From NCBI RefSeq assembly GCF_003431825.1, contig NZ_CP020083.1:558001-622000 (forward strand): DNA of 64,000 bases. The letters run 5' to 3'. Position numbers and translations under genes: made by a program. The notes beneath the pieces are model-generated. The model ran no database searches and was not told where the DNA came from. It saw only the letters and a list, made by a program, of their open reading frames with translations. This stretch comes from Blastomonas fulva. GTDB taxonomy: Bacteria; Pseudomonadota; Alphaproteobacteria; Sphingomonadales; Sphingomonadaceae. This document shows positions 57,227-64,000 of this stretch, piece after piece; the first letter of the stretch is position 1, and each line of letters starts with the position of its first letter.

Positions 57227-58981
57227 CTAAAACTCAAGGTTCCAGGCGAGCGCAAAGGACAGGCCATCGTCCTGGATGTCGCGGCTGCCGGTGACCGGCG
57301 CATCGATCAGTGCATGGCCATAGATTACGCGCGCGGTCAGCGACGGCGCCGGGGTCCAGGCGATCGCGGCGCCGATGCTGGCGAGCTCGCGCGGAACCGG
57401 CTGGAATGCGGCATCGGCGTTGCGCGCCAGCGCGCCATCGGCAAAGATCGAGGGCGTGAAGCTGCCCCAGCGCAGCCCCAGCGGACCCCTCGCGCCCGAG
57501 CCCAGCATCAGTGGCCTCGCCAGCTCCACCGATCCGGTTAACCCCCGGTCGGCGAGCAGCAGGCTCTCGCGATAACCGCGCACGCTCTGGCTGCCGCCAG
57601 CGACGAAGCGCTCGCCGGCATAGAGCGCACCTTCGCCATATTGCCCGGCGAGCCGCGCACGCAGCTCGAACCCGCTGCGGCCCAGACGGCGGGCGTGGCT
57701 GATCTGGCCCGACCAGCTGCGAAACCTTGGCGATGGAGCAACGATGCCGACGACGTCCGATCGGCTGCCCTCGATCCCCCGGGTGAAGCGGGCCTGCGCG
57801 ATCCACACGGTGCCCGAGCTGCGCCGGGTCCATTCCGCGCCCAGCCGCAGCGCGGTGTATTCCGCAAGACCGCGCACCGATCCGGGGCTGAACGAAAAGG
57901 GCTGGCCAAGCAGGAAGGTGCGGGTCTCGCGGTGGATCAGCCCTGCGCGCAGCACCAGCGACTGCGCGCTGGTTTCCGCGCCGCCATCGATCGAGGCGGG
58001 CGACAGCGGACGCTGCCACACGGTGAGCCCGAAGCCGCCTTCGACGAACCAGTCGCGCGCGCGGATGTTGAGGTTGCGAAGCGGTGCATCGACCACCGCG
58101 GCGCGGTTGTACCCGCCGCGCACGTCGAGCGTGAGCGCGGGGTGGACGAACGGTGCGGAATAGTCCGCCAGCACATCGGGGAGTCCGGCGGTGAGCCCGG
58201 CATCGAACGCGATCCGGTCGCCGGGCATCAGCGCGTTGCGTACCGCCAGCCCGGTGCCGAAGCGCAGACCCCCCACCGCGGGCGAGCGGCTGTTGGCGAT
58301 GCTCGCCTGCACCGCAAAGCGCGGGGCGGGATCGACCAGCAGCGCCAATCGCGCCTCGCCGGGCCGGGTGCCGGGCTGCAGATCGGCCTTCACCGTCGCG
58401 ATCGCATCATCGGCGGCGAGCGTGCGGAAATCGCGCTCGATGGCGAGGCCATTGAGCGGCCAGACGCGCGCCGAGGGCATCCGCGCCAGCACATAGCGCG
58501 CGCTCAGTCCGCGCCGGTGTCCGTCCTGCCACTCCACGGCCACGCCCGCCTCACCCAACCGCCCCGCCACCAGCCGCAGCACCAGCGGCGATGCACCGGT
58601 CGGATCGGTCGCAGGGTCGATCAGCACGCCCGAATTGACAAAACCGTTGCGGACATAGGCCAGGCTGATCTGCTGGACGGCGGCGGCAATGCGGTCGAGC
58701 GGCACCGGGGTTTGGATCAGCCCGTTGGCGATTACCTGCTCGCGCACCCACTGCCCGTCGAGCCGGTCGCCCTTGCGATAGCGGACCTGAAAGCCGCCAA
58801 AGTCGAGCCCATCGCTGTCCGTGGTCGCAATGGCGATGGCGCCAGGCTCGGCATGCACCTCGACCGCGCAGAAGGTTACGATCCCCGCATCGGCGGCCGA
58901 TGCTGCCGCTGCGGGATCGCACGGCGGTGCGACAGGCTGCGCGGCCTGCAGCGCGAGCGCCAGCGCGAGGGTCAACGGCAT
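57227..58981 (-). CDS. TpsB outer-membrane transporter (ShlB/FhaC/HecB family)
   Basis: 584 aa from ATG 58981; the stop of the tpsA gene (58972) lies inside its first codons. Signal peptide MPLTLALALALQAAQPV. POTRA-like region (residues ~50-200) ends before a 16-strand barrel. The hallmark VRGY is in GSQSVRGYRES. It would translocate the adjacent TpsA-type protein across the outer membrane. Last gene of the three-gene operon. Confidence 0.9.
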   Translation of the reverse strand: MPLTLALALALQAAQPVAPPCDPAAAASAADAGIVTFCAVEVHAEPGAIAIATTDSDGLDFGGFQVRYRKGDRLDGQWVREQVIANGLIQTPVPLDRIAAAVQQISLAYVRNGFVNSGVLIDPATDPTGASPLVLRLVAGRLGEAGVAVEWQDGHRRGLSARYVLARMPSARVWPLNGLAIERDFRTLAADDAIATVKADLQPGTRPGEARLALLVDPAPRFAVQASIANSRSPAVGGLRFGTGLAVRNALMPGDRIAFDAGLTAGLPDVLADYSAPFVHPALTLDVRGGYNRAAVVDAPLRNLNIRARDWFVEGGFGLTVWQRPLSPASIDGGAETSAQSLVLRAGLIHRETRTFLLGQPFSFSPGSVRGLAEYTALRLGAEWTRRSSGTVWIAQARFTRGIEGSRSDVVGIVAPSPRFRSWSGQISHARRLGRSGFELRARLAGQYGEGALYAGERFVAGGSQSVRGYRESLLLADRGLTGSVELARPLMLGSGARGPLGLRWGSFTPSIFADGALARNADAAFQPVPRELASIGAAIAWTPAPSLTARVIYGHALIDAPVTGSRDIQDDGLSFALAWNLEF

Positions 58982-61725
58982 CCTCCGTCGGCGGCAGGCT
59001 GGGCACCCTCCAGCGCCAGCGGGCCGACGGCATCGATCGCAAGGCGGCTGACCGATCCGCTGCTGCGCGCCGCGCGACACTGGCCCGCAAGCACGCCCGC
59101 CGCATCGCCGAAGCTGATGTCCGGCGTGTCGATACCGCTGCTGACGTTGCCGACCTGGCTGTCGACCACCAGATCGCCATCGACCAGCAACAGATTGCTG
59201 TTGTCTGCCGATCGGATGAAGAAATCGGTGGCGAGCTGGACGTTCGCGCCGCGCTGCTGCCCCAAAGCCTCGATCCGCCCGCCATCCGCGATCAGCGCAT
59301 AGGGGCGGCTGATCGTGATCTGCCCGCCGGTGCCGGGGCCCGACGACGTCGCGATTCCCGCCGGGGTCGCCCCGCCCGCGAGCCGCAGGATGCCGGTGTC
59401 GGGAAGCTGCAGGTCGATCCGCCCCGCCGCGCCAGCCAGCGAGCTGGTGGTGATCAGCCCGCCCGGCCCCAGAGTGATACGCGGCGCGGAAACCATGATG
59501 TTGCCCGCTGCGCCGCTGCCGGCTGCGCTGTTGGTGCTCGCCACCCGGCTGCCCATACCTGTGATGGTGATACTGTCTTCCGCCACCAGCGCGACGCCGC
59601 CGGCGGTGGTGGCATTGGCCGATCCAGTGGTGACCTCCGCCCCGTCGGCCAGCGCGATCTGCCGCGCGATGAGCACCACGGTGCCCGCCTGGCCGGGCGC
59701 AAGGCCGCCCGCATCCGAGCTGATCCGGCTCCCGGCGCCGAGCAGGATGCGATCGGCGGCCACCGTGACGGCTCCCGCATCGCCAAAGCCCTGGGTCGCG
59801 GTGGAGATGGTGCCTCCCGCCATGGTAAACGTGTCGGCGACGGCGAGCGTGATCGTCCCCGCCCTGCCCGGACCCGGCACGATCCTCAGCACCGGATCGA
59901 GGTCGGGATCGGCCTCGAATTCCTCGCGCGATGGCGGAACCTGCAGCACCTGGGCCGAAGAGGTGATCTCCGCCTCGCCCGACATCGATATCCTGCCAGC
60001 CGTGATGGCGATGTCTCCGGCATTGCCCAGGCTCGCGCTGGAGGTCGTGATTGTGCTGCGACCGATCATCTCGAGGGAGTCCGTCACGATCGATATGCGG
60101 CCCGCAGAGCCGGTATAGTCGCTCAGCCGGGTGAATTCCTGCGCGCGCGGCAACTCGGTCTGTGAGGAGATCGATGGCCCCCCCATGTCGTCGACCATCC
60201 GGATCGCCCCGGCGCGGATGGTGATCGAACCGGCATCCCCCAGCCCCTGGCTGACCGATTGGATGCCGCCGAAACCGGTTAACTCGAGCAGGCCGCGTAC
60301 CGTGATGTCGATCGATCCGGCGGCGGTGGAGCTGGCGGTGCCGGTGGAAACCAGCCCCAGACCGATCGCCATGCTGTCGGCGCGGATGGTGATGCTGCCC
60401 GGCCCCGATGCGGTGCTCGACTGGCTCTGCGCGAGGATCAACCCTGTGCTGTCGATCTCGATCCGGCCGGCGTCTATCACGATGTTCCCCGTCGTGCCGG
60501 TGGGCATGGTGTCGCCGGTCGCCTGGAACAGCGTGGTCGACAGCAGGCCGATTTCGGTGATCTTCAGCAGCCGCGACCGGACCACGATATCCCCCACCGA
60601 CTGGCCGGGTGCGGACAGGCCGGTCGCGGTGACGCTGCCGCCATCGATATGCACCACATCGCCGTCGAGCAGGATTGTGCCCCCGCCGCCTGCCAACATC
60701 GATTCGGTTCGGATCGCGCCTTGGCGGCGCACGATCAGATCGCTGGCGCGAACCCGGATGTCGCCGCCGCGTTCGGCCAGCCCCGCCACGCCGCTAACGC
60801 GAAGTTCACCGCTGACAAGATCAACTAGGTCGGCGCGCACGTCGATCGCGGGCCGTCCGCTGGCGCTGGTGATCACGCCGATCTCGCTGAACGTGTCGAG
60901 CCGCAGGCTGCCCGCGGCCAGCGCGACATGGCCGCCGGTGTCGATGAAGATGCTGCTGTCGTCGAGATCGATGCGTCCGCCGCGCAGGCCCTGGTCGGGC
61001 GCTACGGATATCCCGACATTGCCCCGCCCCTGCCCCACCGCGCGCAGCGCCAGCGTGCTAGCGGCAAGGCTTGCGCTGGCAAATGTGATGTCGCTGGCGC
61101 TCAGCGTCAGGCGGCTTGCCGCCACCCCCCGCGCCAGCCCGTCGCCCAGTTCGCCGGTGGCCAGGAAAGCGATCGGCTGGTTGTTTCCGCCCAGAAAACC
61201 GAAGCGCGCAGGGTCTGCCATGCTGAAGGTCGAGCCCGATGCGGTGCCTGATACCAGCACGGTACCGTCTGCAAAACCGAGCTGGTGCGCGGTCGAAAAA
61301 TGCGCGGTGCCGCCGACATCGACGAACGCGCCATCGCCGAAGACGATGCCCGCCGGGTTGATGAAGTAAAAGTCCGCCCCCGGCATCGCGCTCGCGTCGA
61401 TAGTCCCCGCGATGAAGGAGCGCTCGCCGCCGGTGACGCGGTTGATGACATTGCGGATGGTAGCTGAATCGCTCGCGGTCCAGCGCGCGATGTCGCCCGG
61501 GCCAAGGCTGAAGCGCGCAAAGCTGTGGAACAGGTTGTCGCCCGCCCGCACCCCGCCGCCGATGGTCGTGGTCGCCCCGTCGGTGGTGGCGGTCGTGCCG
61601 GTGCTGAGCGAGGGCAGCGTATCGGGGGCGATCGCGGTCTGCGTGGTCAACGCGTCCTGCGCCGCCACGGGCATCGCGCCCGCCGCGAGCGCCAGCGCCG
61701 TACTAGTGATCAGCCAGCGTCTCAT
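58972..61725 (-). CDS. TpsA-type filamentous protein (FhaB N-terminal domain)
   Basis: 917 aa from ATG 61725, signal peptide MRRWLITSTALALAAGAMPVAAQ. The two-partner secretion domain follows, with RFSLGPGDIARW, NRVTGGERSFIAG and NPAGIVFGDGAFVDVGGTAHFSTA (core cited), then beta-helix repeats rich in DIxV/GxGGxI to the C-terminus. There is no clear toxin tail. It overlaps the CHAT gene stop at its start (ATGA) and the tpsB start at its end. It is likely exported by the TpsB protein and exposed on the surface. Confidence 0.9.
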   Translation of the reverse strand: MRRWLITSTALALAAGAMPVAAQDALTTQTAIAPDTLPSLSTGTTATTDGATTTIGGGVRAGDNLFHSFARFSLGPGDIARWTASDSATIRNVINRVTGGERSFIAGTIDASAMPGADFYFINPAGIVFGDGAFVDVGGTAHFSTAHQLGFADGTVLVSGTASGSTFSMADPARFGFLGGNNQPIAFLATGELGDGLARGVAASRLTLSASDITFASASLAASTLALRAVGQGRGNVGISVAPDQGLRGGRIDLDDSSIFIDTGGHVALAAGSLRLDTFSEIGVITSASGRPAIDVRADLVDLVSGELRVSGVAGLAERGGDIRVRASDLIVRRQGAIRTESMLAGGGGTILLDGDVVHIDGGSVTATGLSAPGQSVGDIVVRSRLLKITEIGLLSTTLFQATGDTMPTGTTGNIVIDAGRIEIDSTGLILAQSQSSTASGPGSITIRADSMAIGLGLVSTGTASSTAAGSIDITVRGLLELTGFGGIQSVSQGLGDAGSITIRAGAIRMVDDMGGPSISSQTELPRAQEFTRLSDYTGSAGRISIVTDSLEMIGRSTITTSSASLGNAGDIAITAGRISMSGEAEITSSAQVLQVPPSREEFEADPDLDPVLRIVPGPGRAGTITLAVADTFTMAGGTISTATQGFGDAGAVTVAADRILLGAGSRISSDAGGLAPGQAGTVVLIARQIALADGAEVTTGSANATTAGGVALVAEDSITITGMGSRVASTNSAAGSGAAGNIMVSAPRITLGPGGLITTSSLAGAAGRIDLQLPDTGILRLAGGATPAGIATSSGPGTGGQITISRPYALIADGGRIEALGQQRGANVQLATDFFIRSADNSNLLLVDGDLVVDSQVGNVSSGIDTPDISFGDAAGVLAGQCRAARSSGSVSRLAIDAVGPLALEGAQPAADGGCR

Positions 61726-64000
61726 CGCCAGCTCCCCACCAAAGTGAACGCGCTCCAGATGCCGGGATCGGCCCATTGCCCGTCCAGCCCCCGCGCCAGA
61801 TCGACCTGCGCCATCTGCAGCGCACGGGCGCGGCCGACGCCCGCGCGATAATGCCTGTAGAACGCCTCCATCAGCGCCGCAGTCCCCGCATCATCGACCT
61901 CCCACAGCGATGCCAGCGCGCTCGACGCGCCCGCCTCGACCGCTGCGCCTGCCAGCCCCATCGCCTGGTCGTCATCTCCCACAGCGGTCTCGCATGCGCT
62001 GAGCACCAGCAGCTGCAGCGCTTCGCCGCGCAGCTGGTTGGCGCTCAGCATTGCGCGCAGATCCGGCAGCGTGATCGCTTCGCCATTGGCGACGATGAAC
62101 GAGCGTTCGGTGCGGCCGTTGAACGCGGCATGCGTGGCCAGATGCAGCACGCTCGCTGGACGCCGCGCCAGCGCGCCTGCGAGCGATGCGCGGTTGAAAT
62201 CGGTGAGCAGCACGCCGTCGCTGCCCGCCGCCATCGCCGCCTCCGCCGCGGTGCCCTCCAGCCTGCTGAACCGCCCGACGGCAAGCTCCATCTCCTTTTC
62301 CAGCGAGGCTGCGATGATCGACGGGTCGACATCGCGCCTGCCGGGCGCGGCAAAGCTGAGCGCGGGAACCACGGCAAGCTGCACCCGCTCCATCAGGAAG
62401 GTGCCCTTCGCATCCATCAGCGCGGCAAAGCTGATCTGGCGCAGCGCCCCATCGGGAACGATCACCAGCGTGCCGCCAAGCTGCAACTGGTCTGCGATCG
62501 GCGCGATCAGCGCCGCATAAAGCGCGCGCGATGCCGCCTCCCAGTCGCTGCTCTCGCCGCTCAGCGATGCCGTCATCCGCTGCGCGAGCGCGGTGATCTG
62601 GGCGCGGTTGATGCTGCGATCGGGCGGCATCCGGCGATAGCGGCGCTCGCCCGCCCCCGTGCCCTGACCGCCGGTGGCATAGATAAGCTCGACCCGGTCT
62701 TCGAGCAGCAGCGGATAGAGCAATATCTCGCCCGGCAGCAGATCGGCGGGCGTCACCGGATTGCGCAGCGGCACGCACTCGGCACCCAGGCTGTTCTGCA
62801 GTTCGGCCGAGCGATAGGCCTCTGCGATCCGCTGCGCCTGCCCCAGCGTGTTTGCGTCATCCCCCGCGAATGCGAGCGTGGTGGCGATCGCGCGCTCGAA
62901 CACCGGGCGCACCACCAGATCGAACCGGCTTTCCTCGCTCAAGGGATCGACCGGCATCAGTACGGTGCGCACCCGCTCTAGGGCCCGATACGCGGCGAGC
63001 ACATGCTCGCCTGCGCGTTCGGGCTCGGCATCGGCGAGGGTGAGCCTGTATTGTGGCAGATGCTGGGGCAGCGGCTGCTGGCTTTCGATAAACACCGCCT
63101 TGCGCAACGCCGCCCGCGCTGCCGCACCCTCCCCTTGCGCCAGCGCGATCCGCCCCTGCAGCGCGGCAAGCGCGGCTGCATCACCCGATCCTGTCTGTAC
63201 CAGATAGGCGTATGATTGTACGCCATCACGAACCATATCGGTGTTGCACAGCCCCGCATCGCACGCCAGCATCAGCAGAGAGCGGAGCAGCGCAGCGCGT
63301 TCGGATGTGTCCGCGATACCGGCGGCCGAGCCGAGGCCCGTCGCCAGATGCGCGGCAACATCGGCCTTGCGTGCCTTTTCCAACCGCGCCAGCCGCAGCG
63401 CGGAGAGCGCCGTCAGCCGCGCATCGCCTGCCAGCACGGCGCGGTAGAGCGCACAGGCAAACGCGGCCTCCAGCCTGCGGCCGCCTGCCTCGCCAATTGC
63501 TGCAGGATCACCGCATCCAGCCACGGCCCGTGTCTCGCCCGCGCGCCGGATTGCGCCGCCGCGCTTGCGCACGCCCGGCTGGCTGGGCGGCGCGCCACCG
63601 GCCTGGGCCAGCGCTGCCTCCCACGCGGCGCGCGCGGCGAGCGGAGCGTCGCCGGCCCGGTCCGCCAGCATCAGCGCGGTGCGCAGAAAATCCTGCGCGC
63701 GCGACTGGCTACCCGAGCGCGCGCGGCGCATCGCCTCGCCCGCGACGAGGCAATATTCCGCGATCTGCCGGATGTCGGCAGCCGCCTGCACTGAAGAATC
63801 CGCCGCAGCGGCGAGCAGCAGCGCGAGCGCCGCATCCGCGCCATCCGCGCCGCCGCGCATCAGCGTTCGGGCCCGGTTGGTCTGCTCTGGCAACGCAAGG
63901 GCAGCACCGGCGGCAGGCGCTGCGGCCTCGCACAGCGCGATCACCTGCGGCACGGAGGGCGCAACCTCTCCCACACCGCCCAGCGCAGCCACCATCACCC
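61722..64000 (-). CDS. CHAT-domain protease, N-terminus outside the window
   Basis: At least 759 codons; the frame runs off the right edge, and the first residues visible are not a signal peptide. The N-terminal part is alpha-helical with TPR-like repeats. The C-terminal CHAT (caspase-like) domain has both active residues: His in VLHLATHAAFNGR and Cys in LVLSACETAVGDDDQAMGL, then SSALASLWEVDD. Stop overlaps the tpsA start. Operon context with TpsA/TpsB points to a secreted-protein processing or surface-sensing role, but no substrate is known. Confidence 0.85.
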   Translation of the reverse strand, partial: VMVAALGGVGEVAPSVPQVIALCEAAAPAAGAALALPEQTNRARTLMRGGADGADAALALLLAAAADSSVQAAADIRQIAEYCLVAGEAMRRARSGSQSRAQDFLRTALMLADRAGDAPLAARAAWEAALAQAGGAPPSQPGVRKRGGAIRRAGETRAVAGCGDPAAIGEAGGRRLEAAFACALYRAVLAGDARLTALSALRLARLEKARKADVAAHLATGLGSAAGIADTSERAALLRSLLMLACDAGLCNTDMVRDGVQSYAYLVQTGSGDAAALAALQGRIALAQGEGAAARAALRKAVFIESQQPLPQHLPQYRLTLADAEPERAGEHVLAAYRALERVRTVLMPVDPLSEESRFDLVVRPVFERAIATTLAFAGDDANTLGQAQRIAEAYRSAELQNSLGAECVPLRNPVTPADLLPGEILLYPLLLEDRVELIYATGGQGTGAGERRYRRMPPDRSINRAQITALAQRMTASLSGESSDWEAASRALYAALIAPIADQLQLGGTLVIVPDGALRQISFAALMDAKGTFLMERVQLAVVPALSFAAPGRRDVDPSIIAASLEKEMELAVGRFSRLEGTAAEAAMAAGSDGVLLTDFNRASLAGALARRPASVLHLATHAAFNGRTERSFIVANGEAITLPDLRAMLSANQLRGEALQLLVLSACETAVGDDDQAMGLAGAAVEAGASSALASLWEVDDAGTAALMEAFYRHYRAGVGRARALQMAQVDLARGLDGQWADPGIWSAFTLVGSWR

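Follow-up and report, generated by a model that had tools for sequence, protein, structure and literature searches.

The window analysed here is a stretch of 64,000 nucleotides from the Blastomonas fulva genome (G000:C1:558001-622000). Its distal end holds a unit of three genes on the minus strand, behind mutS, that encodes a protein with a tetratricopeptide repeat (TPR)-like part and a CHAT protease domain, together with the TpsA filament protein and TpsB transporter of a two-partner secretion (TPS) system (Table 1). The genes follow the order CHAT, tpsA, tpsB, and neighbouring genes overlap, as a first-pass annotation of the window had claimed: the stop codon of CHAT and the start codon of tpsA overlap in an ATGA (61725-61722), and the tpsA stop (58974-58972) falls within the start of tpsB, whose ATG is at 58981. 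An alternative tpsB start is a TTG at 58975, preceded by GGAGG. For tpsA, the start used by homologues gives 917 amino acids, and the first ATG of the open reading frame is a different one. Completion of the CHAT gene, as the same annotation had advised, gave a coding sequence for 765 amino acids, whose ATG (G000:C1:622019) lies 19 nt outside the window. Whether this gene starts inside another operon had also been asked; its start is not within another gene, but mutS, identified by eye, ends 84 nt ahead of it on the same strand. A consensus scan of the intervening gap found neither a promoter nor a terminator, and co-transcription with mutS is therefore possible.

Table 1. Features of the CHAT-tpsA-tpsB unit, in window positions
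Feature	Position	Strand	Basis
TPR-CHAT protease gene	61722..64000 + 19 nt beyond window (G000:C1:622001-622019)	-	Pfam CHAT, gene model, structure model
Extra His of TPS-linked CHATs, His626 codon	62142..62144	-	alignment column counts
Catalytic His630 codon	62130..62132	-	invariant in alignment; aligned again with fused CHATs
Catalytic Cys676 codon	61992..61994	-	invariant in alignment; aligned again with fused CHATs
ATGA shared by CHAT stop and tpsA start	61722..61725	-	sequence
tpsA, predicted secreted beta-helical filament protein, 917 amino acids	58972..61725	-	TPS domain, TIGR01901, beta-helix model
TPS secretion domain of TpsA	60952..61611	-	Pfam PF05860
TpsA C-terminal tail, residues 858-917, conserved, disordered	58975..59154	-	pLDDT, alignment of 36 sequences
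tpsA stop / tpsB start overlap	58972..58981	-	sequence
tpsB, predicted outer-membrane transporter of ShlB/FhaC type, 584 amino acids	57227..58981	-	Pfam ShlB; weak CdiB match

All three proteins have domain matches above curated cut-offs. The CHAT protein scores 175.7 bits against PF12770 (Pfam cut-off 24), the N-terminus of TpsA 99.6 bits against the TPS family PF05860 (cut-off 33.5), with TpsA also reaching 53.4 bits against TIGR01901 of NCBIfam (cut-off 29.1), and TpsB 64.8 bits against ShlB, PF03865 (cut-off 22.7). A POTRA_2 match in TpsB (PF08479; 14.2 bits) falls under its cut-off of 24, and the sole PDB sequence match of TpsB is a weak one to CdiB (E 0.022). TpsA had been described as having no obvious toxin tail, and Pfam indeed shows only the TPS domain and no toxin domain. 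The structure model of CHAT (pLDDT, the predicted local confidence score, 86.2) contains a large TPR-like helical part, and its fold matches the RNA-activated protease Csx29 and also the anti-sigma factor DdvA. In the TpsA model (pLDDT 81.2), a beta-helix leads into a tail; EtpA, HxuA and HMW1 are its Foldseek matches, and secretion of TpsA by TpsB is predicted. A role in anti-phage defence was also considered; the sole PADLOC match was a marginal one, of CHAT to BovA (13.7 bits), with none for TpsA or TpsB. Named close relatives from Blastomonas are 96% identical for TpsA and 96% identical for CHAT.

Association of CHAT proteins with two-partner secretion

Two sets of counts bear on whether CHAT and TPS genes belong together, one drawn from the same bacterial family and one from public genomes. 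The 119 same-family genomes yielded 121 CHAT, 80 TPS and 120 ShlB matches. Of the 121 CHATs, 56 have a TPS or ShlB match no more than 25 kb away, in all 56 cases on the same strand, compared with about 3 expected by chance if genomes of 3.3 Mb are assumed. Counted per genome, 48 have both, 12 CHAT only, 28 TPS/ShlB only and 31 neither (Fisher p 2.7e-4), although the genomes are related and the cases are thus not independent. In the second test, public genomes were searched with a TpsA profile, blind to CHAT. At the best 80 of at least 545 relatives, a CHAT was present in the DNA examined at 44 loci, 40 with a CHAT on the same strand and 4 on the opposite strand only (binomial 1.7e-8); among the 48 loci flanked on each side by more than 5 kb, 31 had one. 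A stricter score left 43 CHAT loci, distributed over Pseudomonadota (20/32), Cyanobacteriota (17/27), Thermodesulfobacteriota (5/12) and Nitrospirota (1/5), with 0/4 in four further phyla. The gene order of the window, CHAT-TpsA-TpsB, is found in 7 of these 43, with other orders elsewhere. Judged from these counts, the pairing of CHAT and TPS genes is not due to chance, and the co-occurrence on which the first-pass annotation had made its reading depend was found both within the family and across phyla.

In the source genome, two of the four CHAT matches each adjoin a TPS system, of which the genome has four. A second, larger TPS-CHAT system at G000:C1:1481158-1493452 (L006, L050) consists, in this order, of TpsB, a TpsA of 2712 amino acids and a CHAT of 1032 amino acids, and a further TPS system of this genome is without CHAT (L117, G000:C1:1236000-1253000), its TpsB lying downstream of TpsA with other genes around. 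A literature search, in which most subscription papers were out of reach, returned no paper joining CHAT with two-partner secretion or with CHASE2. One report (PMC8999054) places CHAT proteins near ECF54 sigma-factor genes.

Two further genes accompany many of the linked pairs in the family. For comparison, we read 45 of the 65 unlinked CHAT loci, in stretches that were shorter than those of linked loci (median 14.9 kb vs 20 kb), and 36 of the 39 TPS matches (among the 80) that are not near CHAT, the three omitted being two matches from the source genome and one repeat match within a single gene. A CHASE2-nucleotide cyclase is encoded at 23 of 56 CHAT+TPS loci, 0 of 45 CHAT-only loci and 0 of 36 TPS-only loci; the corresponding counts for a small protein, c3, are 24/56, 1/45 and 0/36. 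The c3 protein has no Pfam match and passed a signal-peptide test in 18 of 20 cases, and no NCBIfam family exceeded its cut-off for c3, the cyclase, CHAT or TpsB. Across phyla, Pfam-verified CHASE2 proteins occur at 11 of the 44 CHAT loci, carrying a cyclase or kinase domain or, at two loci, a fusion to CHAT, and one further CHAT locus has a cyclase without CHASE2. Cyanobacterial CHAT-CHASE2 fusion proteins near TPS genes are found at L153:6353-8707 and L188:198-2666.

The TPS-linked CHAT subfamily, its fusions and the TpsA tail

An alignment of 160 CHAT domains, in which fusions were sampled one in five, shows the complete catalytic His/Cys dyad in 55/55 TPS-linked, 43/43 unlinked and 44/44 cross-phylum domains and in 17 of 18 fused ones, the exception being a gapped row. 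The window's CHAT has both residues, His630 and Cys676, in agreement with the first-pass annotation. An extra His four residues before the catalytic His is present in 51/55 linked, 44/44 cross-phylum and 15/18 fused CHATs, and in 0/43 unlinked. On a FastTree tree, only 2 label changes separate linked from unlinked CHATs of the family. On this tree, built by a quick method and with some long branches, the window's CHAT joins the cross-phylum and fused CHATs in a group of 66 rows (support 97); the other 51 linked CHATs of its family fall outside it. By alignment and tree, the TPS-linked CHATs are a distinct CHAT subfamily.

TPS and CHAT domains also occur in a single protein. In a member of the Desulfococcaceae (L161), one frame of 1557 residues runs from a signal-peptide-like start through a TPS domain, repeats, a tail motif and a TPR-like part to CHAT; a TpsB match is absent from the DNA examined at the locus. 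Of the 332 relatives found for the second half of this protein, 120 were listed, and 91 of those 120 carry TPS and CHAT in one chain by our own profiles, with TPS first in all 91. The His/Cys dyad is aligned in 90 of the 91 fusions, the remaining one being gapped at His; a pattern search recovered it in 57/91, the pattern being too narrow as judged by the alignment. In such TPS-TPR-CHAT fusions the protease is part of the filament chain itself, an arrangement that favours action of CHAT at or on the filament. Some listed CHAT proteins (P0276, P0284, P0285, P0294, P0302) bear an OmpA domain (PF00691), and these point to the envelope. Other domain combinations were also seen: P0047 and P0082 join TPS and ShlB domains in one chain, resembling a tpsA-tpsB fusion, and P0173, P0287 and P0290 are CHAT proteins fused with DUF928 (PF06051).

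Export was assessed with a strict, home-made signal-peptide test, which none of 60 control genes judged cytoplasmic by eye passed. It was passed by 39 of 55 linked CHATs, 26 of 35 TpsAs and 29 of 50 TpsBs, and also by 15 of 23 unlinked CHATs.

The C-terminal tail of the window's TpsA has a pLDDT below 50 yet is conserved, with C883 invariant and C916 present in at least 90% of 36 sequences. HMW1-type filaments are anchored by a C-terminal Cys loop; the C883-C916 spacing is wider than that of HMW1. The larger CHAT-linked TpsAs of the family end instead in a VTGxGNxxLW motif, learned unsupervised on 14 proteins; of the CHAT-linked TpsAs held out, 14 of 16 have it, vs 0 of 27 CHAT-less rows (1% shuffle threshold). 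The split was made by genome, so that one genus can fall in both training and held-out sets, and the analysis excluded short TpsAs and a single poorly called gene. A cruder by-eye tail pattern was present in 22/35 CHAT-linked and 0/28 CHAT-less TpsAs; the CHAT-less rows of both tests count one protein twice, and reading frames truncated at an edge of the DNA examined entered neither test. The VTGxGNxxLW tag of the larger TpsAs (L038-L093) may serve docking or sorting.

Possible roles of the CHAT protease

In the most economical reading, CHAT is exported and docks at the base of the filament by way of the TpsA tail. TpsB would export the beta-helical TpsA filament, while the caspase-fold TPR-CHAT protease would reach the periplasm. 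There, its TPR solenoid would dock on the TpsA C-terminus, a conserved but unstructured tail that would remain at the TpsB pore. On a trigger, which could be either the completion of secretion or contact at the surface, CHAT would cut at the filament base, and the filament would be freed or reset. The fused TPS-TPR-CHAT proteins would represent a one-chain version of the system. The association with shared orientation, the fusions, the intact dyad, the distinct subfamily and the conserved tail are seen in the sequences and speak for this mechanism, as do the signal peptides of many linked CHATs, the C-terminal tag of the larger TpsAs and the fold match to Csx29; docking, proteolysis, substrate and trigger are inferred. 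CHAT would then be a dedicated third partner of two-partner secretion, a tentative reading to which we assign a probability of roughly 0.4. The first-pass annotation had suggested that the protease could process the filament or act on a target after surface contact; the co-occurrence and the intact catalytic residues support it in part, whereas filament processing is something that we infer, and action on a target after contact may also occur.

Several observations weigh against this mechanism. The association recurs within the family and in four phyla, but 65 of 121 family CHATs are not near TPS genes, and 36 of 80 TpsA loci have no CHAT in the DNA examined. Unlinked CHATs pass the strict signal-peptide test at a rate similar to that of linked ones, so that export is not special to the CHAT-TPS pairing. 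The window's CHAT itself fails the test, having a hydrophobic N-terminus with no Lys/Arg before the hydrophobic stretch, and its putative periplasmic location is thus drawn from its relatives and from the fusions. Without the demand for Lys/Arg, 43 of 47 close relatives pass, in a looser scan whose background is high: with any early Met allowed, 128 of 286 control genes pass. The VTGxGNxxLW motif was rejected for the window's TpsA, whose lineage has another ending, and the tail motif of that lineage is found in CHAT-less TpsAs too. Finally, no cut site was found.

The strongest rival is signalling across the envelope, in which the filament would sense contact and trigger a periplasmic CHAT whose target is a membrane sensor rather than TpsA. 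Candidate sensors are the CHASE2-cyclase, a CHASE2-kinase and a small periplasmic protein. We consider this scenario possible but doubtful. The distribution of the CHASE2-cyclase and c3 genes in the family, the Pfam-verified CHASE2 proteins at cross-phylum CHAT loci (including two CHAT fusions) and the match of the CHAT fold to DdvA all speak for it; however, the window operon has neither a CHASE2-cyclase nor c3, the cyclase is missing from 33 of 56 family loci, and matches to the cyclase profile, taken without a Pfam check, also occur at 4 of 36 cross-phylum loci without CHAT. It is conceivable, at odds well short of even, that these loci represent a widespread and as yet unnamed envelope-crossing system, with the filament as antenna, TPR-CHAT as a trigger at its base and an inner-membrane CHASE2 enzyme that leads to a second messenger. 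The window operon would then be the minimal three-gene form, and the TPS-TPR-CHAT fusions the one-chain form.

The position of CHAT at the C-terminus of the fused TPS proteins, where CdiA carries its toxins, would also suit a payload, that is, an effector on or released from the filament that acts on other cells or surface proteins. This is unlikely, because the stand-alone CHAT has no TPS domain with which to enter TpsB, and the gene downstream of the unit in the window is aldolase-like by eye (an immunity gene was not looked for systematically). Less likely again is a non-proteolytic scaffold or chaperone that uses its TPR part to keep TpsA at the pore: the large helical part of the model and the lack of a known CHAT substrate would fit, but the catalytic dyad is retained in all linked and cross-phylum CHATs aligned and in 90 of the 91 fusions. 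That CHAT and TPS genes are neighbours merely by chance or shared genomic position is hardly credible. Many family CHATs (65/121) and TPS matches (39/80) do stand apart and same-family cases are not independent, but 56 pairs against about 3 expected, full co-orientation and occurrence in four phyla argue otherwise, and the gene fusions already contradict it.

The proposed third-partner protease can be compared with several known systems. The type Vb adhesins FhaB/FhaC, HMW1, HxuA and EtpA share with the window's system the TPS domain, the beta-helix and the ShlB/FhaC-type transporter; the difference is the TPR-CHAT protease, which here is co-encoded or, in relatives, fused. FhaB is processed by other proteases, e.g., SphB1 and DegP. 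The TpsA/TpsB layout resembles that of CdiA/CdiB, but the window's TpsA ends in a conserved, disordered tail of 60 residues rather than in a toxin domain. Csx29, of the type III-E CRISPR effector Craspase, has a similar TPR-CHAT fold, whereas the window's CHAT neighbours mutS, tpsA and tpsB, has the extra His, and has relatives that mostly bear signal peptides; a Cas7-11 effector is not among its immediate neighbours (mutS, tpsA), and no CRISPR search of the remaining genome was made. Despite the fold match to DdvA, the window's CHAT has no anti-sigma part by Pfam and lies in a secretion operon.

To our knowledge, the CHAT proteases whose job is known (Craspase, SAVED-CHAT) act inside cells. 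A large, conserved CHAT subfamily tied to two-partner secretion, marked by one-chain fusions and an additional His, would put a protease of this kind in the envelope or at the cell surface. Anchoring, release or read-out of long filaments could be tested directly in this system, with the three-gene form as a minimal model.

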